From: Methanoplanus limicola DSM 2279
Lineage (GTDB): Archaea; Halobacteriota; Methanomicrobia; Methanomicrobiales; Methanomicrobiaceae
Reading direction: 5' to 3'
Length of the DNA: 64,000 nucleotides
Assembly (NCBI RefSeq): GCF_000243255.1
Contig: NZ_CM001436.1
Span: forward strand, 1,576,957-1,640,956
Made by a program: the position numbers and the translations under genes
In this document: in pieces, positions 5,557-26,208 of the stretch
How the letters are laid out: each line of letters begins with the position of its first letter
Numbering within the stretch: the stretch's first letter is position 1
Notes under the pieces: generated by a model
Told to the model about the DNA's origin: nothing
What the model saw: only the letters and a program-made list of their open reading frames with translations
Database searches by the model: none

Positions 5557-7308
5557 TTATTTTAATTCTCTCCAGTTTCTTTCCGGAACTGTGATTTCAA
5601 AACGCACTCCTTTTCCCGGAATACCGTTTTCAGTTATTGTTATGCCGGATATATCAAGAATCTCTCTTGTGAGGAATAGACCCAGACCGGTATTTTCTCC
5701 AAAACCCCGGTCAAATATTTCATCTTTTATCTCTTCAGGAATTCCTCTGCCATCGTCTTCTACAATTATTTTCCCTTTTCCATAATTATCTGTAAAACAT
5801 GAAACCCGTATTTCAGTGATGTTGCCACCGTGCCTGAATGAGTTTTCAAAGAGATTATAAAATATTTTTTCAAGCATAGCATCTGCCAGAATTTCAAAAC
5901 TGTTCCTGCATGGGATAAAGTCAATATTTTCATAGCCAAGAAGACTGAATGATTTGCATGATATTTCTCTGACATTCTGCCACACAGGTTCTTTAAGACC
6001 TAAATTCTGGTAATCTTTGGTAAATTCAATCTGTTCCTGGATTTTTTCCACTGCTGAAAATATTATGTCCAGATTTTCGGCTGCCCTGCTGTTTTCCTGG
6101 CATTCATCTCTTAACAGTTCCAGAAACAGGGTTGCTCCGGTGATCTGGTTCAGTATATCATGTCTTGTAATTCCGGAGAGAAGATTTAATTTTTTGTTTG
6201 CGGTTTTTAGGGCCTCCTGATCTCTTTTCCTCTCCGTAATGTCCATAATTATGCCAATTATTCTTAATGGTCTGCCACTCTCCCATTTAACGATTTTACC
6301 TATTATATGTACCCAGATAAGATGTCCCTCTTTTGTGATATTGCGGAATTCAGCTTCGTAATAGTCACTTTTTTTACTGAGATGCTTCAGGAATGATTTA
6401 TTTAGTAATTCCTTATCTTCCGGGAATATATTTTTCCTCAGCAGTTCCGGGTCATTATTTATCTCTTCAGGAGTATATCCATATATTTTTGAATACTGGT
6501 CATTAATTTCTATATTTCCGGTGGAGTAATTCCAGTCCCATACTCCAAGATTTGTACTTTTAAGTGCAAGATTAAATCTTTCTTCTGATTCAGCGAGTTT
6601 AATCTCGGTATTTTTGAGTTCAGTGACATCATTAAAGGTGATCACAATCTCGCCGGATGATAATTTATAAATGTAGTAGTCACGCCAGCCTGGATTTTTG
6701 ATGTTATTATAATACCCTACTGGAATTTTCAGGGGTTTTTCCGAGATGAAGACTGAATTTATTTCCGGAATGAGGTGTGAAAAAGAGTATTTTGTTTTCA
6801 ATTCTGCTATTGTTTTTCCTTCTGCTTCCTCCGTGAGAAAACCTTCGATCTGCCCTGCTGATAAGTTTGTCTTGTCTATTATGTACTCAGAATCTTTTTT
6901 CCCTTTTTTTAATATACAGACTCCGCTGCTTATGTTGGTCATTAGTTCACGGAATCTGGAATCGCTTTTAGATACTGTGGTCAATAATTCTGCTTCTTTT
7001 CCGGCCAGGATTACTACAACCAGTGATATTCCTATGAATACGCAATATCTGATCAGTGCATGTATAAACATTTCATTGTAGTATGTTGTGTAACTGAAGA
7101 CAGATATGAGGTAAATGGTGCTCAGAATTAACGAATAAAACAAACCTTTTTTTAAGTACCAGTAGGATGAAAGAATAATTGGTATGTAATAGAGATGCGG
7201 GAAGACTGCAAAGAGATTTTCATTTAAGAATATGAAACTGACTGAAATACATAGTAATGATGATGCTATTATTGTTGCTATTTTTAGTATTTCAACCGGA
7301 TTTTTCAT
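5557..7308 (-). CDS. Membrane PAS-domain sensor histidine kinase
   Basis: Sensor kinase of 583 aa. About four or five hydrophobic segments fill residues 5-105, two PAS domains follow (roughly 112-235 and 240-360, the second ending RIIGIIMDITERKRDQEA with the PAC signature), then the phospho-acceptor helix with RHDILNQI (about 385) and an HATPase domain with NLFENSFRHGG (N box), VEDDGRGIP (G1) and GENTGLGLFL (G2). The RHDILNQ H-box is typical of methanogen kinases. It lies 50 bases downstream of moaB on the same strand. A stand-alone receiver protein (8085-8477) is divergent and about 0.8 kb away, a plausible partner. The ligand is unknown. Confidence 0.9.
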   Translation of the reverse strand: MKNPVEILKIATIIASSLLCISVSFIFLNENLFAVFPHLYYIPIILSSYWYLKKGLFYSLILSTIYLISVFSYTTYYNEMFIHALIRYCVFIGISLVVVILAGKEAELLTTVSKSDSRFRELMTNISSGVCILKKGKKDSEYIIDKTNLSAGQIEGFLTEEAEGKTIAELKTKYSFSHLIPEINSVFISEKPLKIPVGYYNNIKNPGWRDYYIYKLSSGEIVITFNDVTELKNTEIKLAESEERFNLALKSTNLGVWDWNYSTGNIEINDQYSKIYGYTPEEINNDPELLRKNIFPEDKELLNKSFLKHLSKKSDYYEAEFRNITKEGHLIWVHIIGKIVKWESGRPLRIIGIIMDITERKRDQEALKTANKKLNLLSGITRHDILNQITGATLFLELLRDECQENSRAAENLDIIFSAVEKIQEQIEFTKDYQNLGLKEPVWQNVREISCKSFSLLGYENIDFIPCRNSFEILADAMLEKIFYNLFENSFRHGGNITEIRVSCFTDNYGKGKIIVEDDGRGIPEEIKDEIFDRGFGENTGLGLFLTREILDISGITITENGIPGKGVRFEITVPERNWRELK

Positions 7309-8477: not shown

Positions 8478-8556
8478 TCATTAACAAAACTTTGTTTTAG
8501 AGGCTGTTTTTGAATGTACAATCTTTTTATATCTGGCTGACATAAAAAATGATAAT

Positions 8557-9216
8557 ATGGTTGGTCGGAATTTTTATTTTATTGTTCTTGTTGTATTTTC
8601 TGTTATGGTAACTTGCGGCTGTACTGAACTTCCTGAAGAGATTGAGGAAACTTTTACGGCGCCTCCCCCGACAAGTACAGTTACTCCTTCTCCGACCACT
8701 TCCGGATATATTTCTGAGTATGTGAATTATTCAACGCCGGTTCCAACACCTACTCCTGAAGCAAGGCCGACATATACTAACCCTCCGGATGATATGAGCA
8801 GTCAGGTGAATTATTCCCTCATTTATGAAGATAAGCACTATTTTAAAGGGGATGTTGTCTCTTTTGATTATAATCTCATCTATCCCCCTATGATAATTGA
8901 CTATGAGGCTACGACAAAGAGTGTATCTGATACAAAGAGTGGCAGCAGTCAGTTTGGTGACAAAAGCAGTTATTCTGTGACTACAGCAAGTCCGAATCCT
9001 GCTGCATTTTATTATGTGAGTGTATATGATGACTGTTCGGGTGAACTGCTGAAAAAAACCGGTATTGATCAGTTTGCAAAACTCAGTCAGAAAGGGGAAC
9101 TGAAAATATTTTCACCCGGAAGGATGCATATTGAATTATATGGTGCTCTTGCAGATGTCAAAACAAGGATCAGGGTCGCGCCCGATAACATAAATGCGAC
9201 ATCAGCATCCTGTTGA
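8557..9216 (+). CDS. Predicted lipoprotein of unknown function
   Basis: A 219-aa secreted protein. It has an N-terminal hydrophobic segment ending VTCGC (lipobox-like, lipidation expected at C22), then a Thr/Pro/Ser-rich linker (about residues 33-75) typical of archaeal cell-surface proteins, then a globular domain of about 140 residues with many Tyr and Ser. I recognise no family for the globular part. It starts 80 bases after the response regulator stop, behind a TATA-like CTTTTTATATC near 8522-8532, so it probably has its own promoter. It is the last gene before tRNA-Arg and the integrated element. Confidence 0.7.
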   Translation: MVGRNFYFIVLVVFSVMVTCGCTELPEEIEETFTAPPPTSTVTPSPTTSGYISEYVNYSTPVPTPTPEARPTYTNPPDDMSSQVNYSLIYEDKHYFKGDVVSFDYNLIYPPMIIDYEATTKSVSDTKSGSSQFGDKSSYSVTTASPNPAAFYYVSVYDDCSGELLKKTGIDQFAKLSQKGELKIFSPGRMHIELYGALADVKTRIRVAPDNINATSASC

Positions 9217-9371
9217 TCTTATGAAATTTAATTCTTATTAATAATATCTAAGTTCATTTCTTATTTTAATTCTTAAATGGGTTCTTTATTGCCGTTTTGT
9301 GTCATCGAATTTAATTTCGGCAGACATATATGTGAGATGATCTAATGTATGTAGGCAACTCTAATGTGAGT

Positions 9372-9443
9372 GTCCCGATAGGGTAGTGGATATCCTAGAA
9401 GCTTGCGGAGCTTTTGACCCGGGTTCGAGTCCCGGTCGGGGCG
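9372..9443 (+). tRNA. tRNA-Arg (anticodon GCG); integration site
   Basis: A 72-base cloverleaf. The acceptor stem pairs GTCCCGA (9372-9378) with TCGGGGC (9436-9442); discriminator G. The anticodon stem GAAGC/GCTTT encloses loop TTGCGGA with anticodon GCG, reading CGC and CGU. The T-arm CCGGGTTCGAGTCCCGG is canonical. Its last 12 bases plus one downstream are repeated at 16906-16918, which marks this gene as the attachment site of the element that follows. The tRNA itself is intact. Confidence 0.95.
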
Positions 9444-9444
9444 T
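9432..9444 (+). repeat. attL: left copy of 13-bp attachment core
   Basis: CCGGTCGGGGCGT, the end of the T-arm and acceptor stem of tRNA-Arg plus one base. The identical string occurs at 16906-16918, right behind the integrase and its small upstream gene. Use of a tRNA 3' end as attachment site is standard for archaeal tyrosine recombinases. Confidence 0.8.
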
Positions 9445-9472
9445 CTTAACGGATAGTATGTACTTCCTCACT

Positions 9473-9495
9473 GCCTCAACTATTATTATTGAGGC
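9473..9495. terminator. Hairpin downstream of tRNA-Arg
   Basis: Perfect 7-bp inverted repeat GCCTCAA (9473-9479) / TTGAGGC (9489-9495) with a 9-base AT loop. It is 30 bases inside the element from attL, so it could be a transcript end or an arm site for the integrase rather than part of the host tRNA unit. Confidence 0.35.
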
Positions 9496-9657
9496 TATAG
9501 GATATATACTTTTTCCAAATTCTGAGAATTTTATATAATCAATTTGTAGCTATTTTACAGGCATGTTTTTTCACAGGATGTTTACCATTACCTAACCGGA
9601 GATAATACCTTGTGTGCCTTCTGTGTGGATGTTTTTCTATAGGATTAAAAAAAAGAG

Positions 9658-9855
9658 TTATGATCTTTGGTATCTGTGATTGTCCGGCAGGATAATTACA
9701 CTTGTTCCTTCATCCACAGCCCGATCATAGTTCCCCTGGTCTTCCTGCTTAATGCTGCCATCCGGATCGGTAATGAATACATATTGAAATATTTCCTTCC
9801 CGGATTCTTTCACCAACTGATCGATCTGCCGGTGTAACTGACTTATAGTTTTCAT
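9658..9855 (-). CDS. Small hypothetical protein of the element (65 aa)
   Basis: Last gene of the element's small-gene chain. Residues 1-20 look helical and amphipathic (ISQLHRQIDQLVKES), then YVFITDPDGSIKQ suggests a short beta hairpin. No family is recognised. The start at 9855 is chosen because its ATG overlaps the upstream stop as TGATG; a longer frame from 9864 has no supporting site. The stop is followed closely by an A-rich run in the transcript sense. The role is unknown. Confidence 0.6.
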   Translation of the reverse strand: MKTISQLHRQIDQLVKESGKEIFQYVFITDPDGSIKQEDQGNYDRAVDEGTSVIILPDNHRYQRS

Positions 9856-10133
9856 CAAACACACTCCCGGATCTTTTCCTTCTGCTGTTTGGTCTCAAGT
9901 TCTTTAATGCGATCTTCTAACTCTTCGATCTCAGAATCTTTAAGAATTTTATTTGTGACATCAACAAATGATGAAAGTGCTCTGATGGTCTGCAAGTAAA
10001 GTGCTTCATTCTCATTCGGTCGATAACGTCCGGATATTTTTTTATCCAATTTTTGAAGGATTTTAGCGCATAGCGCTAATAATTCCTTCCTGTTCATTAT
10101 TTCCGGCTCAATCTGGCTTTTATCTGACATCAT
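9855..10133 (-). CDS. Small coiled-coil hypothetical protein (92 aa)
   Basis: Starts at ATGATG overlapping the upstream stop (ATGA), so it is translationally coupled; the longer frame from 10157 is not needed. The N-terminal half is helical (NRKELLALCAKILQKLDKKI) and the C-terminal third (SEIEELEDRIKELETKQQKEK) is a clear coiled coil with heptad spacing. This suggests an oligomerising protein or a partner for the other small proteins in the chain. No known family is recognised. Confidence 0.65.
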   Translation of the reverse strand: MMSDKSQIEPEIMNRKELLALCAKILQKLDKKISGRYRPNENEALYLQTIRALSSFVDVTNKILKDSEIEELEDRIKELETKQQKEKIRECV

Positions 10134-10405
10134 AGTTTCTTCTCTGCTGCTTCGCATGCCTTAAAAAAAGGATCGTTCCTGATATGGTTTGCCCGTGCCG
10201 CTCTCATCCGCTCTTTTTTCGCCTGCTCTGCCGAATAAGCCTTATAATACTGGCTGTTTTTGTCCTGAAGTTCTGCCTGTCGTGCAACCTCTAACACTTC
10301 TTTTAAATTGTCTGTTGCTGGGGTGTGTGGATTTGGAACACGCCTTAAGAAGTAATTCCTCCACAATTCAGCAGGAATCACAAACGGCCCCATAATACCT
10401 GACAT
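10130..10405 (-). CDS. Small hypothetical protein (91 aa)
   Basis: Starts at the ATG of a TAATG overlap with the upstream gene. The N-terminus (GPFVIPAELWRNYFLRR) is partly hydrophobic; the rest is Ala-, Lys- and Arg-rich and probably helical (AEQAKKERMRAARANH). Nothing identifies a function. Short basic helical proteins of this type in mobile elements are often nucleic-acid binding, but that is a guess. Confidence 0.6.
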   Translation of the reverse strand: MSGIMGPFVIPAELWRNYFLRRVPNPHTPATDNLKEVLEVARQAELQDKNSQYYKAYSAEQAKKERMRAARANHIRNDPFFKACEAAEKKL

Positions 10406-10665
10406 TAGAACCACCTCCCAAGCCTGTAAACTGGCTTCGGCTTTGCTGCATCCCGGATTTTACCTTCTGCACTGTTCTTTGCTACTCGTTCCTTAGTTGC
10501 GATCTGTCTTCTCAGTTTGGACTTTGGATCTTTCTTCTCTACTGCCTCGGCGATCTTTATCGCTTCAAGTGCAGAATCAGCTATGCTTTTTCCGGATGAT
10601 CTCATCCGGAGATAGTCGCATAGTTCATCTGATAACCTGATCTGGTTGAATACAACCGGCTGCAT
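10405..10665 (-). CDS. Small basic hypothetical protein (86 aa)
   Basis: Start and stop both overlap neighbours through TAATG, the hallmark of this coupled chain. The N-terminal 45 residues (IRLSDELCDYLRMRSSGKSI) resemble the helix arrangement of small DNA-binding or antitoxin-like folds; the C-terminal 40 residues are strongly basic. No family is recognised. It lies between two other uncharacterised small genes. Confidence 0.6.
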   Translation of the reverse strand: MQPVVFNQIRLSDELCDYLRMRSSGKSIADSALEAIKIAEAVEKKDPKSKLRRQIATKERVAKNSAEGKIRDAAKPKPVYRLGRWF

Positions 10666-11006
10666 TAGATCGCCCCCGTTTCACGTCTTAAAAAGTCGAT
10701 CATATCGCTAATTACATCATCTTCAGACAAAACAGAATTTTCTGCCATTCTGTGATTAATCTTTTCTGTGATTTCCGGAGATAGATCAATATATGATTTA
10801 TTTGTCCTGGTCGCCCTTTCTTGAAGGATGTACCCGGTCCGGACATTTTCCGGAATCCTGCTTTCCTTTAAGAGAACAGTTTTGTCCTGCCGTAACTCAA
10901 AAGCAACTTCTAATAGCTGTTCAAGCGCTTCATCAAATGATAATCCGTGTTTCTCTGCTTTACGTGCGATATATATCGCCTGTTCTGGCTGTAATTTTAC
11001 TAACAT
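10665..11006 (-). CDS. Hypothetical helical protein (113 aa)
   Basis: A 113-aa protein with a strong ribosome-binding site (AAGGAG a few bases before the ATG) placed in the 3' end of the small gene upstream. Helical N-terminus (LQPEQAIYIARKAEKHG), then LSFDEALEQLLEVAFEL. The C-terminal section LSPEITEKINHRMAEN... resembles a ribbon-helix-helix or short antitoxin-like segment. It is the largest of the distal small genes. No function is assigned. Confidence 0.65.
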   Translation of the reverse strand: MLVKLQPEQAIYIARKAEKHGLSFDEALEQLLEVAFELRQDKTVLLKESRIPENVRTGYILQERATRTNKSYIDLSPEITEKINHRMAENSVLSEDDVISDMIDFLRRETGAI

Positions 11007-11008
11007 AA

Positions 11009-11143
11009 TTATTTCTCCTTTTTTATTTTTTCTGCTTTTTTTACCTGCTTTTTCTGAAATTTGGCTGTCTGCCTGGCTAAATGCTGGGCGTGTGTTTTGT
11101 AATTTTGTAGCTGTGAATGTTGAACTATAGATCCCATTTTCAT
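11009..11143 (-). CDS. Very small basic protein (44 aa)
   Basis: A 44-residue frame beginning MKMGSIVQHSQL and ending KKAEKIKKEK. Its ATG overlaps the upstream stop (ATGA), it ends 2 bases before the next ATG, and its last codons hold the AAGGAG site for that next gene. This placement strongly suggests a translated link in the chain. Almost half its C-terminal half is lysine. It may bind nucleic acid or simply couple translation. Confidence 0.55.
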   Translation of the reverse strand: MKMGSIVQHSQLQNYKTHAQHLARQTAKFQKKQVKKAEKIKKEK

Positions 11144-11397
11144 AAACTCCCTTTTATTCTTTCATTCTGTAGCCTCGCCAATTCATCAACCGGGAATTTA
11201 TCTGTCTTAAATTCCACAAAATTAACGGATAAATGCGAAATGTTCTGTCTTCTATACCGATATTGTCCGCCCCGAATATCTTCGAGGTCAATATCTCTTC
11301 GTATTGCTTTATACGGACAAATAAAAGCTACTTTAAGTCCATTTGGTGAAATGTAGCCTATTACGTCCTTTATTTGTGGATCAAACCAGTATGTCAT
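11140..11397 (-). CDS. First gene of the element's distal operon, hypothetical (85 aa)
   Basis: Start chosen at 11397 because GGAGG lies 8 bases upstream; the frame from 11415 would include that site. Residues 1-60 look like a small beta-rich domain (WFDPQIKDVIGYISPNGLKV, AFICPYKAIRRDIDLEDI). No family is recognised. It is immediately downstream of the iteron region 11534-11630, from which the minus-strand operon down to 9658 is presumably transcribed. Confidence 0.65.
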   Translation of the reverse strand: MTYWFDPQIKDVIGYISPNGLKVAFICPYKAIRRDIDLEDIRGGQYRYRRQNISHLSVNFVEFKTDKFPVDELARLQNERIKGSL

Positions 11398-11533
11398 AAT
11401 GTGTGCCTCCTGCATGGTGTCGGCTGCGGTGGTCTTCCTGGATATTTTCCACAGTGCACAAAATACCCGGACTTTACAACATGTGCAAAGTTCCCAAATG
11501 TCCCATTATGAAAATCAGATCTATCTAATGGGG

Positions 11534-11630
11534 AATTATGATAATTATGATAATTATGTAAATTATGATAATATAGAGAAATATCTCTATAATTACTCTG
11601 GGGAATTTTGTTAATTATGTAAATTATGTT
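11534..11630. repeat. Iteron-like 9-bp repeats in two clusters
   Basis: Four tandem 9-mers at 11534-11569 (AATTATGAT, AATTATGAT, AATTATGTA, AATTATGAT) and two more at 11613-11630 (AATTATGTA, AATTATGTT). Each cluster is preceded by GGGGAATT (11530-11537 and 11600-11607), and a perfect palindrome lies between them. Tandem iterons beside a replication-protein gene are the usual build of a plasmid origin; they could also be operator sites for the ribbon-helix-helix protein. This 253-base gap holds no protein gene. Confidence 0.6.
11572..11591. promoter_or_regulatory. Perfect palindrome between iteron clusters
   Basis: TATAGAGA (11572-11579) and TCTCTATA (11584-11591) with a 4-base AATA spacer. 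It is centred between the two iteron groups, 60 bases downstream of the primase stop and 175 bases upstream of the next operon start. It could be a dimer-binding operator or an origin hairpin. Confidence 0.5.
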
Positions 11631-11650
11631 CTTTTTGATAATATTGTGAA

Positions 11651-13915
11651 TTAGTTTAATACATACCATCTTTCTAACCTCCCTTTGTCGCTTTTTGCTT
11701 CTGTCTCGTACAACTCATTAGATTCTATCAGAGTGCCGATTTCCGGATTTATATCTGATGCTTTTCTGTGGATATATTTAAGAAGAGCGCTCCGGGTGCT
11801 TTTTCCGCCTTTGCGCTTCAGAAATGCAATGATCTTATCCTGCAAGTTTTTAGAGTCCTGCCGATTCACCCGCTCTGCTACTTCACAGAATATAGGTATA
11901 AAATACTGTTCGACTTGAGAACATGCGATCTTAAGTTCTCTCTGTTCAATTGTCCATATGCTGCTACTGTGTGGGTGTTCGTTAAATGCCGGGTCCCCTA
12001 CTGCAAGGCACATTGCAATCTTAATCACATTGTCTGCAAGTCGGCCAAATGCCGATAATTTGATCTCATCCCCTTCTTCCGATAGTGCGATCTCAATCCG
12101 GCGCTGCCAGTTTTGATAATGCCGGAGTGCATCCTGTGATAAGACAAACTCAAAGTTATGAGTTTCAAATATTTTCCGGACTTTGTTAAAGCCTGAAATA
12201 ATATCCTGGTATTCACGATCTAAAGTATGATCTGCCGGCTCAAATGCCAAATAGTCTTTTTGGTATTCCGGAAGAGTGAACATAAATCTGAGTAGCCATC
12301 CGGACTGAAGATCAAGCGTGCTGCTATGCCTGCATAGTGTATCTGGTACAGTTGCACTAAGGATCGTAAAATATGGCTTCTCAATTTTGAAATCTGTTTT
12401 TTCATCTTTATTCTTTTTCGATCTCAGTTTCCGGGTGTAATCGCTGCGGTCGTAAATATTGCAAAAAATATCCCGCATGTTTGCCATATACGCCTTTTGC
12501 ATATCGGCTAATAACTGCCCGCACTCATCAAGAATAAGATACTGTGTGCTGTGTTCTGCCATCGACTCTATAAAAGCCTCTGGGCTGAATGAGTTCTCAC
12601 ACCTGTGAGGTGCTTCGAGGTCTATAAGTGTGCCTGAATTCTGCAATACAGCACTGAGTAAAGAATTTATCTTTTTTACTGCTGTTGTCTTTCTTGAGAC
12701 TGTGGATAAACCCAAGTTCATTATCCACAAGTTGCTATGTATATCCCCGTGCCGGAATCTAACAACTGCATTTCCTCTCATAAGTGTGGAAATGGTGAAT
12801 AGTGCCCCGGCGTATTGATACTCAGAGTAACTATCTGATCGCTTTGCCATATGCTGGGCATATTGCATTATCAGATTATCGGCTGGAATATCTGAAAGAT
12901 CAAGCTTTAGTTTGTTGGCTTTATATCCGGACTGAAGGTCTTTAGCGTCCGGTGGTTGCTCTTTACTGGTAAATATGCCGTCTGCAAGTGCTTTGCCTTG
13001 TGCGATCTCTTTCTGACAATAATAGTTAGGATCATATGTGTCTTTCAAGTCTGCAAGTGCCTTATCGATCTGATCTTTGCCCCAAGTGCTGTTCCCGCGG
13101 GCTTCATCCCATTTTGGGCGCATCAGTCCGGAAGACCTGAATATACTGTCGATCTGCCCGGCGTCCTGCGTATAGAATGCAAGATAATTACAAAGTCCTA
13201 ATGTTGCCTCTGATATGGAATTATACCCTGCTGTATTGCCGTCATAAAGCGCCTGGGATTTAGAATTATTCCGGATGTGTTCCATTACCTGATCATCACT
13301 TAACGCGGTCTGTGTGACTCTGGTACGCCTTGCAGGCGCTCTGAAAGGATTAACTACTGGTGGTCTGAGTCTGTGACAGATCTTTAAGATTGTGTCCTGG
13401 TCAACCTGCCGGATCTCAGAAGGATAGTCACGGTAAATATTACCTGTTACAGCAAAGAATCTCCCTGTAAAATAGATCTCTCCTTTTTTGGTATGGATTC
13501 CTTTAGCCTTCAAAGAATCCGGACAGTCATCTGTTTTTAGTAGTGTGTGCAGACCTTCCCCGGACTGACTAAACTCGGTGTAAGAATCTAAATTGGTGAT
13601 CTCCTCTGCTATGTCAGGATCGGTTATGTCCTGGTTCACATCAAGAACATGATCGTAATCCACACCAACATAAGGATCATCCTGCCGGAAGGAATACCCC
13701 AAGCCTGCATGAATTTTATGATTATACTCTGCTGCTGCTTCCTTACAAGACCTATTAAATGATTGGTGTGCTACGCTTATCCCGTAAGCATCACATGGTA
13801 TTTTATCCGTTTTGCCATTTGGCATAACTTCAGATTTCCACAAGCCCCATTGCTCCCGCTCTCGCAGTTCCTCCGGAATGTTTAAATAATGTAAGGTCTT
13901 ATTACTGTCTGGCAT
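11651..13915 (-). CDS. Primase / DUF3987-type replication protein of the element
   Basis: A 754-aa protein, the likely replication initiator of the element. The N-terminal 200 residues have the NrS-1-like primase-polymerase pattern: GLGYSFRQDDPYVGVDYD with metal-binding aspartates, then YTEFSQSGEGLHTL. The C-terminal 400 residues match DUF3987, a degenerate helicase-like ATPase: a Walker A-like GLSTVSRKTTAVKK and a Walker B-like QYLILDECGQLL. The extreme C-terminus (KRKGGKSTRSALLKYIHR) looks like a winged helix. The start at 13915 has AAGGAG with good spacing; the longer frame from 13951 overlaps the gene upstream. The iteron region follows its stop. Confidence 0.8.
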   Translation of the reverse strand: MPDSNKTLHYLNIPEELREREQWGLWKSEVMPNGKTDKIPCDAYGISVAHQSFNRSCKEAAAEYNHKIHAGLGYSFRQDDPYVGVDYDHVLDVNQDITDPDIAEEITNLDSYTEFSQSGEGLHTLLKTDDCPDSLKAKGIHTKKGEIYFTGRFFAVTGNIYRDYPSEIRQVDQDTILKICHRLRPPVVNPFRAPARRTRVTQTALSDDQVMEHIRNNSKSQALYDGNTAGYNSISEATLGLCNYLAFYTQDAGQIDSIFRSSGLMRPKWDEARGNSTWGKDQIDKALADLKDTYDPNYYCQKEIAQGKALADGIFTSKEQPPDAKDLQSGYKANKLKLDLSDIPADNLIMQYAQHMAKRSDSYSEYQYAGALFTISTLMRGNAVVRFRHGDIHSNLWIMNLGLSTVSRKTTAVKKINSLLSAVLQNSGTLIDLEAPHRCENSFSPEAFIESMAEHSTQYLILDECGQLLADMQKAYMANMRDIFCNIYDRSDYTRKLRSKKNKDEKTDFKIEKPYFTILSATVPDTLCRHSSTLDLQSGWLLRFMFTLPEYQKDYLAFEPADHTLDREYQDIISGFNKVRKIFETHNFEFVLSQDALRHYQNWQRRIEIALSEEGDEIKLSAFGRLADNVIKIAMCLAVGDPAFNEHPHSSSIWTIEQRELKIACSQVEQYFIPIFCEVAERVNRQDSKNLQDKIIAFLKRKGGKSTRSALLKYIHRKASDINPEIGTLIESNELYETEAKSDKGRLERWYVLN

Positions 13916-13929
13916 AAAGTCTCCTTTTT

Positions 13930-14139
13930 TTATTCCGCTCTGATTATCCATCTGCCTTCGTTAACGAATTTCTGGCAGATAAGAGCTTCTAACGGGTCCA
14001 ATTTCTGGATTAGTTCCGGATCAATAACTCGCGCGGCAGACTGTTTAATACTGTTGCAAGGCATAACATTTGATGAAGCATAGTTGTTTTTTGCTGCTGG
14101 AGTTATTGGCGTAACTCTGGCATTTTCTTTTAATGTCAT
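13930..14139 (-). CDS. Small hypothetical protein (69 aa)
   Basis: Its ATG overlaps the stop of the ribbon-helix-helix gene (ATGA), and it ends 14 bases before the replication protein start. The N-terminal 35 residues are polar; LIQKLDPLEALICQKFVNEGRWIIR is likely helical. It may be the partner of the upstream ribbon-helix-helix protein in a toxin-antitoxin-like or copy-control pair, which rests on position only. Confidence 0.55.
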   Translation of the reverse strand: MTLKENARVTPITPAAKNNYASSNVMPCNSIKQSAARVIDPELIQKLDPLEALICQKFVNEGRWIIRAE

Positions 14140-14309
14140 TTCTTTAAGCCCTCTTCATATTCTGTAAGAACTCTCTCAAGTCCTGCCCTGCATAATGCGG
14201 AAATATTTAGCCCGTAATCATGCGCTTTTAATCTCATATCTACGGGCAGTCTAACATTTACGTTACACATCGGCCTAAATTCCGATTTTTGAAGGTTGAT
14301 TTTATCCAT
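14136..14309 (-). CDS. Ribbon-helix-helix (CopG/CcdA-like) DNA-binding protein
   Basis: A 57-aa protein whose second half, VNVRLPVDMRLKAHDYG, NISALCRAGLERVL, is the beta strand plus two helices of a ribbon-helix-helix fold. The start at 14309 has GGAGGT 8 bases upstream, so the longer frame from 14360 is rejected. It is the first gene of the replication operon and is divergent from 14527; the spacer holds an inverted repeat (14457-14485). A copy-control repressor or antitoxin role is the natural reading. Confidence 0.75.
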   Translation of the reverse strand: MDKINLQKSEFRPMCNVNVRLPVDMRLKAHDYGLNISALCRAGLERVLTEYEEGLKK

Positions 14310-14456
14310 AATTTTATACCTCCGGCAGTGCGCGATCTGAAGTATGCGCGCCTGCCTCAATACATTATATGTTCTAATCCTTTATAAAGCTGCGCGCCGA
14401 TAAAAGCTATATTTCCTAAAAATACGGTTGAATTATACTTCTACTTCTTCGTTTTA

Positions 14457-14485
14457 CCTCTTCTTCTCATCTCTCATTGAAGAGG
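14457..14485. promoter_or_regulatory. Inverted repeat in divergent promoter region (possible operator)
   Basis: CCTCTTC (14457-14463) and GAAGAGG (14479-14485), a perfect 7-bp inverted repeat with a 15-base spacer, surrounded by further CTTCTTC / GAAGAA strings. It lies between the divergent ribbon-helix-helix gene and the zinc-finger gene, just upstream of a TATA-like box, and is a good candidate binding site for the ribbon-helix-helix protein. Confidence 0.45.
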
Positions 14486-14490
14486 AAATC

Positions 14491-14498
14491 TTTAAAAA
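14491..14498 (+). promoter_or_regulatory. TATA-like box for the zinc-finger gene
   Basis: TTTAAAAA about 30 bases before the ATG at 14527. With the usual archaeal spacing the transcript would start within a few bases of the start codon, so the message would have almost no leader, which agrees with the absence of a ribosome-binding site. Confidence 0.5.
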
Positions 14499-14526
14499 CC
14501 ATTAAAGAAGAAAGTAAAATACCGGC

Positions 14527-15186
14527 ATGAATGCAAGTATATTTAAAAAGGCTAAATTTGCGCGGCTAATTAAGAAATATTATATAGATTTTAACGGCGC
14601 CCCTCAAGGTGTGCCCGGCTGCATTGTGGTCTATGAAGGTCTTTATCAGGTATTTCATACTGAAGAGATTAGGCAAAAAGCCCGCCCTGCTGGTGTTCCT
14701 CTTCAGTTCTCACCGGAATTATGGAATATTTACCCGGATCGGCAGTTCACTAATAATGTTTATGTCCCGGATAAGTCCGGGGAGTTCCTTTCAGATGCCC
14801 ACAAGGAAGAAATCATCAGCCATTATTCAGCCCTGGGTTATGCTGTAGATGATCTCTATCCTGTCCGGCGGTGCCTCTGGTGTGATGCCCCTATTTCCGG
14901 CAGGAATGATAAAACATTCTGCTCTAAAAAATGTGCTGCTGCCTTCCGTGAATTATGCCGGACTGATGAATTCAGAACTTACAATGATCTGATCGCTTTG
15001 GGTACATCTGCTGAAATTGAAGAGGCATGTATTCACCTGGATAAACTTAAGGATCGGATTGATAATAAAACAGTTCTCAAATATTGCTTAAACTGTGGTA
15101 ATCCTGTCACGCGGTCAAATGCTAAATATTGTTGTGATAAGTGCCGGAATGAATACAACAATAAAAAAAAGAATTCAGGAAAATAA
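14527..15186 (+). CDS. Hypothetical protein with two zinc fingers
   Basis: A 219-aa protein, the only plus-strand gene of the element. Two C-terminal treble-clef-like fingers are clear: RRCLWCDAPISG...FCSKKC around residues 117-138 and KYCLNCGNPVTRSNAKYCCDKC around 185-206, both CxxC-x13-15-CxxxC. The N-terminal 110 residues have no recognised domain. A nucleic-acid binding role is likely. It converges with the integrase gene, overlapping its 3' end by 12 bases. Confidence 0.7.
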   Translation: MNASIFKKAKFARLIKKYYIDFNGAPQGVPGCIVVYEGLYQVFHTEEIRQKARPAGVPLQFSPELWNIYPDRQFTNNVYVPDKSGEFLSDAHKEEIISHYSALGYAVDDLYPVRRCLWCDAPISGRNDKTFCSKKCAAAFRELCRTDEFRTYNDLIALGTSAEIEEACIHLDKLKDRIDNKTVLKYCLNCGNPVTRSNAKYCCDKCRNEYNNKKKNSGK

Positions 15187-16647
15187 TTTTAGTTGTTCCT
15201 CGGCCTTTGCCTTCAATTGCAGGAATGCCGGATCGGCGTGTATTTCATCTTTCATGCTCTGAAGGTCTGCTGCAACATCTGCCGTTAAAGGTGCCCCACA
15301 GGTGCCACAAAAGCGTGCTGTTGGCTCATTCAATGAATAACACCTTGTGCACTGCCTCGGCTTTAATACGTCCTCCTGTGCCTCTTCTGGTGGTGCCTGA
15401 ATGCCGTTCTGCTGCCTGGAATAGTTCAATATGTCCTTACCGCTCAAATGCGTGTAAGTCTCAAACTCACGGGCGTTAACGTGCCCCCATGCGACTTGTT
15501 GAACCATTGCATCAGACCAACCGGCTTTAACCTTTTGAGTTATGCCGGAGTGCCGGAAATCATGAAGTTTAATGTGTCGCTTAATGCCGGCTTTTGCTGC
15601 AATAATCCTGACCTGTTTTTTCAGTGCTGGATAAGTCAAACTTTGCCCAAATTGATTAACAAATACCGGACTGTCTGCTTTTATCTCTGCTGGATAATGG
15701 TTCATCCACGTTAATAAATATGGTCTGCTGGTGTGTACCGGGATCGTGCGTTCAAACTCGGTCTTACATCTCACCCTGACAACTGCAAAGTGCGGATCGG
15801 AGAAATCAACATCTGACCACTTCATCAGCCCGATCTCCATGCTGCGGAGGCATGCTTCATACATCAGGATAATGATCGCTTTGTCCCGTGTGCTGCTGGC
15901 GGCCTCAATCATGTCCATGATCTCCTGTTCGGTAAATACGTCTTCAGTGGTCTTTGTCTTTGAGTCTGCCGGGACTGCCTTCACTTTTTGGAGTTTGTCC
16001 TGTGGTATGTCTGAATAACCTTCTGCAACCATCCACAGGAATAACCTTTTCATGAATCGTTGATAGTCGCGGATCGTGTTCGGCTTCAGTTGCTGCTTTG
16101 TATCTATAGTGTGCCATTCTCCATCCGTGCCCTTAATTTTCTTGTGTTTGGTGCCGGTCTCTATTTTCTCCATAAAGCCGTAAAAATCAAAGATTGTGCA
16201 TTCTTTGAAGGGTGTTTTTATGTATCTGGTTGCATTGCAGAGAGCATTCATAATTTTAAACTCTCGTGCTGCCCCTATTCTGTTCTCTTGCTTCGTCTGC
16301 CGGACAAACTGCTTTATCATTTGTGCGTCTGCCTCGGTAATCCGGCCTTCATCTATAGCGTATTGTAACCCCAAATCCCCATATTTTTTGAACTCTTCCG
16401 GGGATCTATGAAAGGGGAGTTTATCGCCCCCTTCCAATAATGTTATGCTGCCGTCTGCATGATCTGAGTTGTTCCCATTTTCATAAATGAAAACCTGCCC
16501 CTGGCTTTTGATGGTTGTAGCCATTCCATAAAGATCGGCGTTCGGCTCGGCATAGAAATTATTGTTCTTCAGCCATTTTTTAACGGCTTTGACTGAAGAT
16601 ATTTCCACAGTTCGATCATCACTTGCAAGATGAATTTTATAGATCAT
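15175..16647 (-). CDS. Tyrosine recombinase (integrase) with C-terminal zinc ribbon
   Basis: Site-specific integrase of the element, 490 aa. The catalytic domain shows EACLRSMEIGLMKWSD (first catalytic Arg), KLHDFRHSG (HxxR), a histidine in AWGHVNAREFETYTHLS and the nucleophile tyrosine there. An N-terminal arm/SAM-like domain precedes it. After the catalytic domain comes CTRCYSLNEPTARFCGTCG, a zinc ribbon of the kind seen in several euryarchaeal integrases. The ATG at 16647 overlaps the stop of the small gene upstream (ATGA); the track's longer frame starts with GTG at 16662. It lies 260 bases from attR. Confidence 0.9.
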   Translation of the reverse strand: MIYKIHLASDDRTVEISSVKAVKKWLKNNNFYAEPNADLYGMATTIKSQGQVFIYENGNNSDHADGSITLLEGGDKLPFHRSPEEFKKYGDLGLQYAIDEGRITEADAQMIKQFVRQTKQENRIGAAREFKIMNALCNATRYIKTPFKECTIFDFYGFMEKIETGTKHKKIKGTDGEWHTIDTKQQLKPNTIRDYQRFMKRLFLWMVAEGYSDIPQDKLQKVKAVPADSKTKTTEDVFTEQEIMDMIEAASSTRDKAIIILMYEACLRSMEIGLMKWSDVDFSDPHFAVVRVRCKTEFERTIPVHTSRPYLLTWMNHYPAEIKADSPVFVNQFGQSLTYPALKKQVRIIAAKAGIKRHIKLHDFRHSGITQKVKAGWSDAMVQQVAWGHVNAREFETYTHLSGKDILNYSRQQNGIQAPPEEAQEDVLKPRQCTRCYSLNEPTARFCGTCGAPLTADVAADLQSMKDEIHADPAFLQLKAKAEEQLKLFS

Positions 16648-16805
16648 TCCTTCCGCCCCCACAGGATGATCTCTTCTTGTTCTGCCTCCTTTACCAACCG
16701 GATAAACTCATCCATAGTTGGGGCTTCATCAAACTGTCGTACCTTTTCAGCTTCCCACCGCTGCCTTTCAGGGGATTTTTTAAAACTGGTTTTTGTCTGC
16801 TTCAT
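16644..16805 (-). CDS. Small charged protein coupled to the integrase (53 aa), possible excisionase
   Basis: A 53-residue frame beginning MKQTKTSFKKSPERQRW and ending EEIILWGRKE, stop overlapping the integrase start as ATGA. GGAG and AGGAC lie just upstream of its ATG. Basic N-terminus, acidic C-terminal helix. It sits between attR and int, the usual place of a recombination directionality factor, but no winged-helix motif is evident, so that role is inference from position. Confidence 0.55.
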   Translation of the reverse strand: MKQTKTSFKKSPERQRWEAEKVRQFDEAPTMDEFIRLVKEAEQEEIILWGRKE

Positions 16806-16905
16806 GTCCTCACATCTCCATTAATATTTTAATGGACTTATAGTGAGACAGTTTTTCAGTAACGGCACAAATCCGCGTAAGCGTAAGAACTGACCTTCCG
16901 TACGT

Positions 16906-16918
16906 CCGGTCGGGGCGT
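16906..16918 (+). repeat. attR: right copy of 13-bp attachment core
   Basis: CCGGTCGGGGCGT, identical to 9432-9444 in tRNA-Arg. With the base pattern GTCCGG here against GTCCCGG in the tRNA, the match can be extended to 16 bases with one missing C. Confidence 0.8.
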
Positions 16919-16926
16919 TAAAATAC

Positions 16927-16948
16927 AGGGTTCAACGCCCTTCTTTTT
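16927..16948 (+). terminator. Possible original terminator of tRNA-Arg, displaced by the element
   Basis: Short stem AGGG (16927-16930) / CCCT (16938-16941) followed by a T-rich run. It lies 9 bases after attR, where the sequence downstream of the tRNA would have been before the element integrated. Confidence 0.35.
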
Positions 16949-17119
16949 TATTTTGTAATTATATTATTTCTGTAATCATTCTGAAATATCATCTATATTC
17001 CAATCGTTAATTGACTTTGATTCAGATTATATCTGGCTGAATTGCCCTGCAATTAAATACCAAACCCGGATTAATTATAATGCCTGAGCAACATATTTCT
17101 CATAAACAGGTGCGCTTAC

Positions 17120-17392
17120 ATGACTGCATTTAAGAAAGCTTCAGAAATTGAAGAAAATAAAAATGGTATTCAGAGGTCATCTCCTCCGGAAATAAAGACT
17201 ATAATCCTGAAACATCTAAAGAGTTTTAACAATCCCGTGACTGTAACAAGTACTCTCATTGAGCTGAACAGAAACGGCCTTAACCCTTCAAGAGGCACAG
17301 TCCGGAGATATCTGGATAAAATGGCTGAATCGGGATTTGTTAGAGTTCATATGGCAGGAAATATCTGCGAATTTGAACTGATAAAGAGATAG
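17120..17392 (+). CDS. Winged-helix DNA-binding protein
   Basis: A 90-aa protein. Residues about 25-85 (IKTIILKHLKSFNNPVTV, TVRRYLDKMAESGFVRVHM) form a helix-turn-helix with a recognition helix and a wing, like MarR/ArsR-type archaeal regulators. It is the only plus-strand gene beside the BREX locus, converging with brxL with a 52-base gap, and begins 200 bases outside attR. It could regulate the defence genes, but convergent orientation gives no direct support. It could equally be an orphan left by earlier insertions at this tRNA. Confidence 0.7.
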   Translation: MTAFKKASEIEENKNGIQRSSPPEIKTIILKHLKSFNNPVTVTSTLIELNRNGLNPSRGTVRRYLDKMAESGFVRVHMAGNICEFELIKR

Positions 17393-17444
17393 GAGGCATC
17401 ATTTCAGATAAGTTCATGACATGAATTGAGGGAATATTTTTTCT

Positions 17445-19487
17445 TCAGTTCAGCACAAGTGCCTTATAAACGGCGTCAACCGGATCTTCATAGAAAGAAA
17501 TCTGGAATTTGCTGAAGAGTTCCGGCGGAACGGCAGATATCTTTCTGGCAGATGATATGGGTATCAGCACCTTCTTTGCTCCGGCATCAAGGCAGACCTG
17601 AAGAAGGTCAGAGAGGTTATCAATCGAACTGACTGAACCTCCGATTGTGAAGCTTCCAAGAACTGCTGTCTGCTCATGTACCGGCTTTTCAAGTGCACCT
17701 GAGCAGAGGCTGATAAAGGCTGCCAGTGCAAGTCCGTCAGTCATGCCGGCACCGTTCAGGTCCTGCACATGAAGCTGATAATCCTTCTCCTTTGTGGATA
17801 TGCTCTGACTTACTGATTTTGCATTGGCTTTGAAATAACTGAATGCTGTCTGAACTGCCTCTTTTGCCTTTGAATCTGAGCCAAGCCCTGATTTTTCATA
17901 TCTGCCTGTTCCCGGAACAACCTGAAGCTCCATCCTGTAAACCCCGATTTTGCCGGAGTCGTTTCTGTTCACTGCAAAAACCTGTCCGGGCCTGCCCATC
18001 CCTTCCGGAATTAATTTGCTGCCACCGCTTTCAGGAACAGTTACAAAATGTTCAGAGTTCTCTTCAAGGTCGATATATGAGAAATTGACATCATAAAACT
18101 CAATGCCGCCGATCTTTTTAAGCTGCTCCTTAACTCTTCTTCTTCCTGTAAGGGCATATTCAAGTATCTCACGTGCTTCTTCTTTTGTGATGCTGCCATC
18201 CGGATATATGAGCTTCATGAGTCCGGAGTAGGTCTTTCTTACTGCTATTACATCCCTCTGGTTGAGATTATTCCCAAGTCTGAAATAGTTCCCGATATGA
18301 TCGGCAAATGATCTCTTTCTCATCTCTCTCAGGTACTCGGCAAGATAATCCACTATGAATCCGTAACCGTCAGTGAAATGCTCCGGTCTGAATTTCGGCA
18401 CCTCCCATCCGGGCAGGTAATAATGAATCCTGTCAAAGAATGCGCTGTCGCTGTTTATCGCATCCGGAAACGGTGCAAAGAGATGAGCGGTCTTTAGCAG
18501 TGATGGTATGCTCTGGTTTACGTTTCCGACAAAGACAATTGAGGCGTTTGCATTGATCTGATCCTTTCCCCTGGCAAAAGATCCGGATGCCATATAGTCT
18601 TTGAGGATCTGAATGCCGTCTTTGTCCTTGAATCTTATTCCGGCGACCTCATCAAAGGCTACAACATCCCAGAGTCCTACAAGGCCAACCTGTCTGGAGC
18701 TGAGGTTGTAAAAGAGGTTTGCAACGGTTGTCTGCCCTCCTGATATGAGAATTGTATTTGGTGAAATTTCCTTGTAGATATGTGATTTGCCTGTGCTTCT
18801 CGGCCCTAATTCACAGAGGTTATAGTTGTTTTCAGCAAGCGGAACAAGCCTCTCAAGGAGATGCCATTTGGCAGGATATTTTAATTTTGACGGTTCTATT
18901 CCGGTTGTTCTGAGAAGTATGTCTATCCATTCATCCTTTGTGAACTCTTTTCTTCTCCCGATGATCTCGTTTATATCCATATTTGGGATCTGAATGGGTT
19001 TTAAGCCGGAGATGACAAAGGGGGTTCTTGGTGAGGATTCCGGCATGTACTCCATCTTGACTATGCACCAGATGCCGCCGCCGAGAAGTTTGTCATATTT
19101 TTTAACAGTCTCGGAGTCGATCTCAATCTCTCTTATTCCAAGTGATGAGAATTCGGCTTCGTATATGTCCCTTCTCTCATTGAGCCTGACTGTTATTTTG
19201 TCTATTATTGTATAGTATCCGGTCTCTTTTATCCTTGATTTGATGAGTTCGGCTTCATCGGGGCGTACATAATTGTCTGAGAGTATCTTTTTTACTCTGC
19301 TTACACCCTTTTTAATGAGTTCTTCGTCATCGGTAGCACAGTTTGAACCAAGCAGGTATTCAAGAACATATACAGGAACGTTGTCACTGCCTTTCAGCTT
19401 CTTTGTAAGGTCTTTTCTGACTACTCTTCCGGAGAAATATTTATTCAGTTTGTTGTCTGTTTCCTTTGTTGATTCTGGCCCGGTCAT
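17445..19487 (-). CDS. brxL: BREX protein BrxL (Lon-like AAA+ ATPase)
   Basis: Type 1 BREX effector, a DNA-associated AAA+ protein needed for phage restriction in studied systems. Of 680 aa, the N-terminal 200 residues are the BrxL-specific domain (LNKYFSGRVVRKDL near the start), Walker A is GPRSTGKSH at about 228-236 and Walker B VVAFDEVA at about 275-282. The C-terminal 200 residues resemble the Lon protease domain, but the usual GPSAG serine motif is not visible; the matching place reads NGAGMTDGLALAA, so protease activity is doubtful. The start at 19487 has GAGGTG upstream; the longer frame begins with GTG. It is 16 bases after pglZ and is the last gene of the locus. Confidence 0.92.
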   Translation of the reverse strand: MTGPESTKETDNKLNKYFSGRVVRKDLTKKLKGSDNVPVYVLEYLLGSNCATDDEELIKKGVSRVKKILSDNYVRPDEAELIKSRIKETGYYTIIDKITVRLNERRDIYEAEFSSLGIREIEIDSETVKKYDKLLGGGIWCIVKMEYMPESSPRTPFVISGLKPIQIPNMDINEIIGRRKEFTKDEWIDILLRTTGIEPSKLKYPAKWHLLERLVPLAENNYNLCELGPRSTGKSHIYKEISPNTILISGGQTTVANLFYNLSSRQVGLVGLWDVVAFDEVAGIRFKDKDGIQILKDYMASGSFARGKDQINANASIVFVGNVNQSIPSLLKTAHLFAPFPDAINSDSAFFDRIHYYLPGWEVPKFRPEHFTDGYGFIVDYLAEYLREMRKRSFADHIGNYFRLGNNLNQRDVIAVRKTYSGLMKLIYPDGSITKEEAREILEYALTGRRRVKEQLKKIGGIEFYDVNFSYIDLEENSEHFVTVPESGGSKLIPEGMGRPGQVFAVNRNDSGKIGVYRMELQVVPGTGRYEKSGLGSDSKAKEAVQTAFSYFKANAKSVSQSISTKEKDYQLHVQDLNGAGMTDGLALAAFISLCSGALEKPVHEQTAVLGSFTIGGSVSSIDNLSDLLQVCLDAGAKKVLIPISSARKISAVPPELFSKFQISFYEDPVDAVYKALVLN

Positions 19488-19503
19488 TTGTTGCACCTCA
19501 GCT

Positions 19504-22125: not shown

Positions 22126-22399
22126 GTTTTTTCTCTTCCCCTGACTGATATTTTTATATATTCATATATTCATATATTCTGATTCTGATTGTGCTTGTAA
22201 TTCCGGTTCATATATTCTGATTTTGTCTGTTTCCCTGACTGATGTTTATATATTCTGATTCTGCTTGTTATTCTGATTCATATGTTCTGATTCTGTCTGT
22301 TTCCCCGATTGATGTTTTTATATATTCATATATTCTGATTTTGTTTATTTTCCTTATTCAGCGGAATTATATTTTTGTCCTGAATTTTCCGCCGGACGT
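22126..22399. repeat. Imperfect tandem repeats between pglX C-part and pglZ
   Basis: Three units begin TTCCC(C/T)GA(C/T)TGAT at 22136, 22231 and 22301. Each contains TATATATTC and one or more ATTCTGATT strings, giving lengths of 95, 70 and about 43 bases. A sub-repeat TTCTGATTCTG occurs inside them. No protein is encoded. Such a gap is unusual in an otherwise tightly packed operon; the TATA-like strings may form a second promoter for pglZ and brxL. Confidence 0.65.
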
Positions 22400-25592: not shown

Positions 25593-26208
25593 TTGATCTT
25601 ATCCCCTGTTTCTTCAGGTAATCATACATAAATGTAGGGCGGTGGTTCAGTCCAGGACAGCCCATTGCATCTTTAACGCTCGGTGATTTTTCCCTGAGGC
25701 AGATCATAAGCCTTCTTACTTGTTCGGTTACTTGTTCGGTTACTTGTTCGGTTACTTGTTCGGTTACTTGTTCGGTTACTTGTTCGGTTACTTGTTCGGT
25801 TACTTGTTCGGTTACTTGTTCGGTTACTTGTTCGGTTACTTGTTCGGTTACTTGTTCGGTTACTTGTTCGGTTACTTGTTCTTGTGACTCTGGCTGTGAC
25901 TCTGGCCGTAACTCTGGCTGTGTCATCTCAACAAAACCACCTTTTATTGCCGGTTTCAGATAATCGTACATAAATGTAGGGCGGTGGTTCAGTCCAGGAC
26001 AGTCCATTGCATCTTTTACACTCAGAGGTTTTTCATCAAGGCAGATCATAAGCCTTCTTACTTGTTCGGTAACCGAGTCGGTGACTGGGTCGGTAACCGA
26101 GTCGGTGACTGGGTCGGTGACTGGGTCGGTGACTGGGTCGGTGACTGGGTCGGTAACTGGGTCGAAATTAGTTTTGTATTGTCCAAATGTCTGGTTATAG
26201 GGTTTCAT
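25579..26208 (-). CDS. Winged-helix protein with two modules and VTDP/VTEQ repeat arrays
   Basis: A 209-aa protein made of two similar halves. Each is a tetrapeptide array (about 9 units of VTDP/VTDS near residues 17-50; 13-14 units of VTEQ near 108-162) followed by VRRLMICLxEKxxSVKDAM and CPGLNHRPTFMYDYLK. The second element resembles the winged-helix found at the C-terminus of Fic-type and related regulators. The second module is cut short after YDYLKK by the overlap with the nuclease gene. Its ATG overlaps the truncated rhuM stop (ATGA). Because the unit is 12 bases, copy-number change would alter spacer length without breaking the frame. It may be a regulator of the cassette. Confidence 0.7.
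   Translation of the reverse strand: MKPYNQTFGQYKTNFDPVTDPVTDPVTDPVTDPVTDSVTDPVTDSVTEQVRRLMICLDEKPLSVKDAMDCPGLNHRPTFMYDYLKPAIKGGFVEMTQPELRPESQPESQEQVTEQVTEQVTEQVTEQVTEQVTEQVTEQVTEQVTEQVTEQVTEQVTEQVTEQVRRLMICLREKSPSVKDAMGCPGLNHRPTFMYDYLKKQGIRSNDFV
25626..26069. repeat. Direct duplication of a ~100-bp winged-helix coding module
   Basis: The segment 25626-25727 recurs at 25968-26069, offset 342 bases, with long identical runs (for example ACATAAATGTAGGGCGGTGG, and AGATCATAAGCCTTCTTACT). Differences are few and mostly in the middle. This shows a recent tandem duplication inside the gene at 25579-26208. Confidence 0.85.
25716..25881. repeat. 12-bp minisatellite, 13 identical units plus a partial one
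   Basis: Plus-strand unit TTACTTGTTCGG repeated without change from 25716 to 25871, then a partial unit to 25881. It encodes the VTEQ array on the minus strand. The perfect identity of 13 units points to recent expansion by slippage or unequal exchange. Confidence 0.95.
26058..26164. repeat. Second 12-bp minisatellite, about 9 diverged units
   Basis: Units of the types TTACTTGTTCGG, TAACCGAGTCGG and TGACTGGGTCGG run from 26058 to 26164, encoding VTEQ, VTDS and VTDP. The first unit equals the unit of the other array, so both arrays share an origin; this one carries more substitutions and is presumably older. Confidence 0.9.

Follow-up and report, generated by a model that had tools for sequence, protein, structure and literature searches.

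The question raised by this locus is what a row of 9-bp repeats, set directly behind the primase gene of a small integrated element, is there to do. The DNA analysed (the window, 64,000 nucleotides, in whose numbering all positions are given) is part of a 3.20-Mb single-contig archaeal genome with kin in the Methanomicrobiaceae, Methanomicrobiales. By far the best reading, and a probable one, is that 11488–11653 is a putative replication origin of a 7.47-kb methanogen element.

The element and its repeats

Limits of the element: the 3' end of a tRNA-Arg (gcg) gene (9371–9445, + strand; ARAGORN, Rfam tRNA) is the integration site; the 13-bp direct repeat CCGGTCGGGGCGT lies there as attL (9432–9444, + strand) and again as attR (16906–16918, + strand), which adjoins the gene of the element's tyrosine integrase (15175–16662, − strand; Pfam PF00589, E 1.4e-24; PHROGs). 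A genome of the same genus, G001, is collinear with the window over 8513–9444 and diverges from there on. From the att repeats at the tRNA-Arg end, the integrase and this divergence the element was delimited as 9432–16918, about 7.47 kb; with att repeats at a tRNA gene and an integrase both present, it is a tRNA-integrated integrative element. An empty integration site was sought in G001; the left flank aligned to the tRNA end and the right flank weakly. The content is plasmid-like (small proteins, primase, integrase), and at the Rfam gathering thresholds the tRNA was the sole RNA family found at 9000–17500.

The small-gene operon occupies 9855–11415, its first gene after the putative origin being at 11140–11415 (− strand); the arrays adjoin it on its upstream side and share its strand. 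The small-gene leader (about 11395–11440; CCACCRCAGCCGACACCA.GCAGGAGGC) is conserved in an otherwise different element of G001 (L080), where it also stands beside an array. A small ribbon-helix-helix-like protein of 74 aa (14136–14360, − strand; CcdA, E 0.0035, below the Pfam cut-off), or of 57 aa if read from an internal ATG (14136–14309), is encoded upstream of the primase gene.

Iteron array A consists of six 9-bp units that run straight from the primase stop codon (11600–11653, − strand; in order TAATTCACA ATATTATCA AAAAGAACA TAATTTACA TAATTAACA AAATTCCCC, the third, at 11627, degenerate). Iteron array B has five 9-bp units oriented as those of array A (11530–11574, − strand), and an inverted iteron arm (11488–11505, + strand) is made up of a strong unit, AAGTTCCCA (11488–11496), and a barely scoring one, AATGTCCCA (11497–11505). 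The order on the primase strand is thus array A, a palindrome-bearing spacer, array B, a 24-bp gap and the inverted unit. The 9-mers AATTATGAT, AATTATGAT, AATTATGTA and AATTATGAT were found at 11534–11569, TRF called 11534–11572 (period 9, 4.3 copies), and GGGGAATT is present at 11530 and 11600. Arrays B and A are held in a 70-bp tandem duplication (11529–11666; copies 11529–11596 and 11599–11666, 51/68 identical), and the clusters look like copies made by it; the presence of GGGGAATT in duplicate is thereby explained. The 9-mers, the palindrome at 11572–11591 and GGGGAATT ahead of each cluster, all reported in the preliminary description, were found again; its number of 9-mers (four, then two) was too low, there being six in array A, five in array B and the inverted unit at 11488 in addition.

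Rarity of the repeats: the 3.2-Mb genome has no other place with three tandem units (up to 3 mismatches), and a match to the array 25-mer (up to 3 mismatches) was contained in 0 of 100 shuffles of the window. The identity at lag 9 was 30/40 at 11534 and 27/40 at 11603, which are the two top peaks of the 64 kb (next: 25/40); 0 of 300 Markov simulations gave a lag-9 value as high as that found in the 600 nt behind the gene. With a matrix made from the units of two relatives alone (L031 and L029), 10 of the 11 direct units were in the top 25 of 14,958 places of the element, the inverted unit at 11488 took rank 2 and its neighbour at 11497 rank 166. The matrix consensus of the element's own units is AAATTCACA, with units such as TAATTATCA. 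The inverted score of this element, which has one strong inverted unit, was equalled in 18 of 40 simulations; in the predicted single-strand fold the arm at 11488–11505 is base-paired to the inner end of array A. Within the element, the iteron matrix scores highest at AAATTCTCA (9523, primase strand), a lone site near attL that lies outside the arrays.

Beyond attR, the window contains the BREX defence genes BrxL (17445–19496) and PglZ (19504–22125); tandem repeats upstream of pglZ (22148–22323; a 70-bp unit twice and ATATATTC four times); and perfect 12-bp repeats at 25716–26164 (13.8 copies, 100% identical) within a 209-aa ORF (25579–26208) that has further 12-bp repeats and adjoins a DUF1016/YhcG nuclease gene (24249–25592). 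The chaining score (total) also rises in unrelated repeats: when 627 other 600-nt stretches of the window were scored, 6 had at least 8, of which five overlap or adjoin the repeats at 22148–22323 and one is at 44001; the 12 best window places by the lag-9 measure include 44211 and 44385 (22/40 each) and exclude the repeats at 22148–22323.

The palindrome (TATAGAGA-AATA-TCTCTATA, 11572–11591; 8-bp arms, 4-nt loop) is mildly unusual: when a 300-nt region was simulated 60 times, 4 runs equalled it. Its role as the site's core was ruled out, since the best palindrome arms in the two closest relatives, L031 and L029, are of 6 only and simulations reach 8-bp arms; it is probably incidental. Palindromes between or in arrays were also seen in L032 (arm 9) and in L080 and L100 (arm 8). 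The iteron–palindrome–iteron symmetry described earlier is not conserved: the symmetry of the relatives is that of two oppositely oriented iteron arrays.

The proposed initiator and its known counterparts

The initiator gene (11651–13951, − strand; Pfam, PDB sequence searches, AlphaFold2, fold searches) encodes 766 aa with the following predicted domains: PrimPol and helix bundle, aa about 20–312; MCM-like AAA+ helicase/DUF3987, about 356–690; winged helix, about 698–766. The first is an NrS-1-type PrimPol with helix bundle (Pfam PF22763, E 2.9e-25; PDB 6a9w, E 4.5e-25); the N-terminal part also matches, in the PDB sequence search, the 797-aa 'DNA primase' 7ola (E 4.9e-23), which we take to be SaPI5 PriRep1. 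The codons of the C-terminal winged helix, the proposed reader of the iterons, are at 11654–11860 (− strand; profile match, secondary structure in the AlphaFold2 models), and positions 344–400 of the 415 in the C-terminal-half profile match winged-helix chains (best E 0.0039).

The AlphaFold2 model of the whole protein had a mean pLDDT of 83 and a pTM of 0.56, that of the C-terminal half alone 91 and 0.89. Comparison with archaeal MCM 6mii_A gave Z 18.8, rmsd 3.6 Å, 273 aligned (whole-protein model) and Z 18.4, rmsd 3.6 Å, 275 aligned (C-terminal half); some of the fold-match alignments reach the C-terminus, at high rmsd. All 50 matches listed by VIA-align for the C-terminal half were MCM proteins or complexes holding them; with Foldseek the first RuvB match was 23rd (whole protein) or 10th (half), amid MCM matches whose query-normalised TM-scores are modest (0.36–0.42). 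The curated MCM sequence family gave no match, and Pfam up to E 0.1 returned PF22763 and DUF3987 only. An MCM-type AAA+ fold of the helicase is thus predicted from the models. Solved SaPI or SCC helicases were absent from the matches listed in the fold searches, an absence that excludes nothing. DUF3987 is a predicted helicase family, as stated in the cited passage (PMC5862659).

SaPI and SCC: in SaPI Rep, according to the cited part of PMC7581432, the iterons are directly downstream of the initiator gene and are read by the C-terminal domain of the helicase; the self-loading initiator, by the corresponding part of PMC9894130, loads two head-to-head hexamers on oppositely oriented repeats. The element is like SaPI and SCCmec Cch2 in that array A starts at the stop codon (11653), directly behind the initiator gene, and like SaPI/SCC in having multiple short tandem iterons (here 11 direct 9-bp units, one of them degenerate). 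It differs from them in being archaeal, in its weak facing arm and in the putative origins that some relatives have in the reading frame; against the two opposed iteron sets of SaPI/SCC stands one strong inverted unit here, with inverted sets in 14 of the 28 loci surveyed below. The helicase is of the DUF3987 family, whereas those of SaPI/SCC are given in the same part of PMC7581432 as DUF927 (Cch, related to SaPIbov1 Rep) or Primase_Cterm/D5 (Cch2, SaPI5 Rep).

Phage P4: the alpha protein has primase, helicase and winged-helix origin binder in one chain, and its primase, described in the cited section (PMC4234260) as bacterial in type, differs from the NrS-1-type PrimPol of the element. P4 crr, annotated as required in cis for replication, is directly 3' of the alpha gene and gave with the same scorer a total of 8 and an inverted score of 4, similar to the methanogen arrays; it is composed of 8-bp type 1 repeats such as TGTTCACC, some of them 9 bp apart, in both orientations. 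A P4-like word occurs in some methanogen arrays (e.g., AGTTCACC in L087); the element itself, with its consensus AAATTCACA, lacks the type 1 iteron TGTTCACC. P4 has a second site, ori1, in addition to crr. Homology of the helicase profile to P4 alpha was considered and rejected (hhalign probability 0.3%, no signal).

Plasmid pRN1 and phage NrS-1: ORF904 of pRN1 is an archaeal PrimPol–helicase–winged-helix initiator with an essential cis region 3' of its gene, and the pRN1 origin is described in the cited section as being without iteron structure (PMC4234260). The pRN1-type stem-loop downstream of the initiator (about 100 nt, 21-nt stem) was not found here; in the predicted fold (z −2.1) the palindrome forms a hairpin, and the outer stem, of 4 and 5 pairs, is interrupted. 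The initiator has the same PrimPol and helix-bundle domains as NrS-1 polymerase. The NrS-1 priming site is the 8-nt TTTGGTTA or GTG according to the cited part of PMC8718748; as a motif of this element it was discarded, TTTGGTTA being absent from it. Among the best matches listed in the open-access literature, none dealt with an iteron origin of a DUF3987 initiator in archaea.

Arrays behind homologous genes

Survey: protein and profile searches covered 199, 232, 392 and 185 genomes (overlapping sets) as well as genome and viral contig collections. The sample comprised 28 non-redundant loci with a helicase–winged-helix region and DNA behind it, one per place, picked by protein homology; the target was the 600 nt after the winged helix, the controls were in-gene and further-downstream regions (n = 26 each), and the lag-9 p was obtained from 300 simulations per locus. 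Left out of the 28 were repeats of the same place (L001–L007, L010, L017, L021, L027, L028, L034, L054–L057, L063, L079, L096, L109, L110), loci with too little DNA behind the gene (L008, L058, L098), those with a profile match short of the winged helix (L093, L103, L106) and broken or fragmentary genes (L095, L107, L112).

A lag-9 p of 0.01 or less was obtained for 17 of 28 targets vs 1/26 in-gene and 1/26 downstream controls, in a survey that was not blind, because the scoring rules were fixed after the flanks of many loci had been read. Lag 9 was the best lag in 19/28 targets vs 3/26 and 3/26 controls; the mean best 36-nt identity at lag 9 was 23.0 in the target, 16.8 in the gene and 17.8 further downstream, and the remaining lags from 5 to 15 gave mean identities of 16.2–18.6 in the target. 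Inverted chained 7-mers (at least 3 per side) were present in 14/28 targets vs 0/26 and 1/26 controls; relatedness (L087/L101, L102/L111, L097/L108, where L108, from genome G642, is a near relative of L097) inflates these counts and the covariation test described below. Seven of the 28 loci (the window, L031, L029, L032, L033, L080, L097) had been examined before the profile was built; among the 21 found with the finished profile, 12 reached a lag-9 p of 0.01 or less and 11 had inverted words at 3 or more per side. The lag-9 threshold was missed by 11/28 (L080, L082, L083, L084, L090, L091, L094, L097, L099, L104, L108); L080 has inverted repeats at about 10 bp despite the miss.

Architecture: the words differ among loci, and position and spacing persist. 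The absence of the repeats from relatives sharing the primase had been named in the preliminary description as telling against its reading; the nearest relatives found, L031 and L029, both have them, an outcome that favours the reading. In these two and in the window, six 9-mers run from the primase stop codon in the same register (read by eye), and the winged helices are 58–66% identical. A circular form of the L031 element was considered and rejected, contig L132 being without a terminal repeat. Five units at 9-9-9-8 bp, the inner pair turned round, and a mirrored array were found in L085, L086, L100 and L102; two arrays facing each other in L087 and L089; in L081 and L105 each side has four or five units plus a turned pair. 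The spacing of 140 neighbouring same-strand units was 9 bp in 100 cases, 8 bp in 27, 10 bp in 8, 11 bp in 4 and 7 bp in 1; the count accepts 7–12 bp only and leaves out six weak maps (L084, L091, L092, L094, L099, L108).

The arrays of L081, L085, L086, L088, L100, L102 and L105 are inside the reading frame, past the winged helix and before the frame ends; all seven loci belong to family f8, which includes Methanosarcina, and L083 and L097 may be weaker in-frame cases. The in-frame arrays of L085, for instance, encode the peptides SQNSPISHISH and VKNVKNVKSVK, one per side; that the two inverted arrays give different peptides implies that selection acts on the DNA.

Three further loci: L101 has another 9-bp array, 800–1400 nt past the end of the winged helix, that includes inverted words (lag-9 p 1/301, inverted 4). 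The viral contig L030 has inverted GCACAGG-type arrays at about 9 bp (5800–5950, by eye) before, not after, the PrimPol-helicase gene. A Methanosarcina PrimPol–DUF3987–winged-helix protein (L034, 1103–5517; same place as L097) has a long extension and repeat-like words inside its reading frame; we take the extension to look like an exonuclease domain and the next ORF to be polymerase-like.

Association with the winged helix: in 22 of 23 PrimPol-homologue controls the match to the full-length profile is confined to positions 1–343, and none of these 22 genes is followed by convincing arrays; the inverted score of 3 in L043 comes from a GC palindrome only and was equalled by the L043 simulations. 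In the remaining control, L130, the match extends into the helicase region and arrays are present. Arrays are also present at frames too short for a fused PrimPol (L080, L087, L101, L105). Winged-helix identity and repeat-word similarity were correlated (Spearman 0.38, n = 20, Mantel p 0.003), descent being uncorrected and four of the word/iteron sets picked by eye. No inverted arrays were seen after the gene in the Septimatrevirus phages L137, L138 and L140 (match: PrimPol and much of the helicase) or in phages L141 and L142 (match: helicase and winged helix); the array rule is not universal, since these five bacterial phages with related primase-helicases are without them. Weakly inverted repeats of the GGGAA type lie about 80–180 nt 3' of the primase/helicase gene of Vibrio phage 033B (L139; total 5, inverted 2).

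Alternative readings and the proposed mechanism

The alternative offered in the preliminary description was a cooperative operator for the small-gene operon (9855–11415). In the form considered here, the array would repress or activate that operon, bound by a regulator of the element such as the ribbon-helix-helix protein, and would have no part in replication. This proposal agrees with the location of the array upstream of the operon on the same strand, with the operon leader conserved beside an array in the G001 element, and with six promoter-like matches in 11300–11800 against a shuffle mean of 2.0, counted with a bacterial consensus in an AT-rich region. However, the arrays of L081, L085, L086, L088, L100, L102 and L105 are within the initiator's own frame and not before the next gene, which this proposal leaves unexplained, and arrays accompany the helicase–winged-helix protein even where it has no fused PrimPol. 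An operator without a replication role is the main rival of the origin reading and is improbable; origin and operator roles could coexist. The 57-aa ribbon-helix-helix protein, named earlier as a candidate binder, found no support in this role; its gene is upstream of the primase gene. Bacterial terminators and promoters were considered and set aside: 0 terminators were found, and promoter matches are uninformative in AT-rich archaeal DNA.

Plasmid centromeres are typically tandem short repeats bound by small DNA-binding proteins, and the array might on that ground be taken for a partition (centromere-like) site; this is very unlikely, as the Pfam scan of the 10 element proteins gave no match to a partition ATPase family and in other elements the arrays keep their place where the winged-helix codons of the initiator end. 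Least credible is a functionless AT-rich tandem duplication: the arrays do look like products of the 70-bp duplication in an AT-rich region, but distant elements show the same position and spacing with unrelated words, and tandem duplication cannot yield the inverted arrangement.

The origin reading starts from what is directly seen: the repeats, their recurrent place and spacing, the predicted domains and the integrated element. The earlier suggestion of a replication origin with initiator sites gains from the survey, where homologous initiator genes have the layout at their 3' side too, with other words and similar spacing. By analogy with SaPI Rep and P4 alpha, the site is best read as an iteron origin that the helicase would recognise through its own winged helix. 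This C-terminal domain of the primase-helicase would bind the 9-bp iterons immediately 3' of the gene; several protomers, placed at steps of about 9 bp, would together form a closed MCM-like ring on the DNA; next to the arrays the duplex would open; and the PrimPol part of the same protein would lay the first primer or strand. In many relatives, two facing arrays could load two opposite rings and so give bidirectional replication. In this element the facing arm is short, which may let one direction dominate, and weak, which makes symmetric double loading less certain than in the relatives. With a helical repeat of 10.5 bp, each successive site would be rotated backwards by 51 degrees if the step is 9 bp and by 86 if it is 8 bp, values near the 60 degrees that separate neighbours in a hexamer; this is a calculation and not evidence.

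A broader reading, held tentatively and with slightly less than even confidence, joins these points. Archaeal mobile elements would use a self-contained initiator–origin cassette, whose MCM-like helicase, unlike the MCM of the cell, would need no ORC/Cdc6, since its own winged helix would read the 9-bp row behind the gene. With its 8–9 bp step (about five sixths of a helical turn, roughly one hexamer position) the DNA itself would serve as template for the ring, and rows that face each other would place a pair of opposed rings; the geometry would be constant and the words would change with the winged helix. The family with Methanosarcina would have shifted its entire origin into the reading frame, as permitted by the 9-bp step.

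The putative origin would be an archaeal form of the known downstream iteron origin of a self-loading primase-helicase; it is unlike pRN1, an archaeal PrimPol-helicase initiator with a mapped origin, described without iterons in the cited section (PMC4234260). If the reading is true, one rule (9-bp steps behind the winged-helix codons) would locate origins in many methanogen elements; the loci would be candidate minimal replicons for vectors and would offer a one-protein system for the assembly of an MCM-like ring on duplex DNA without a loader.
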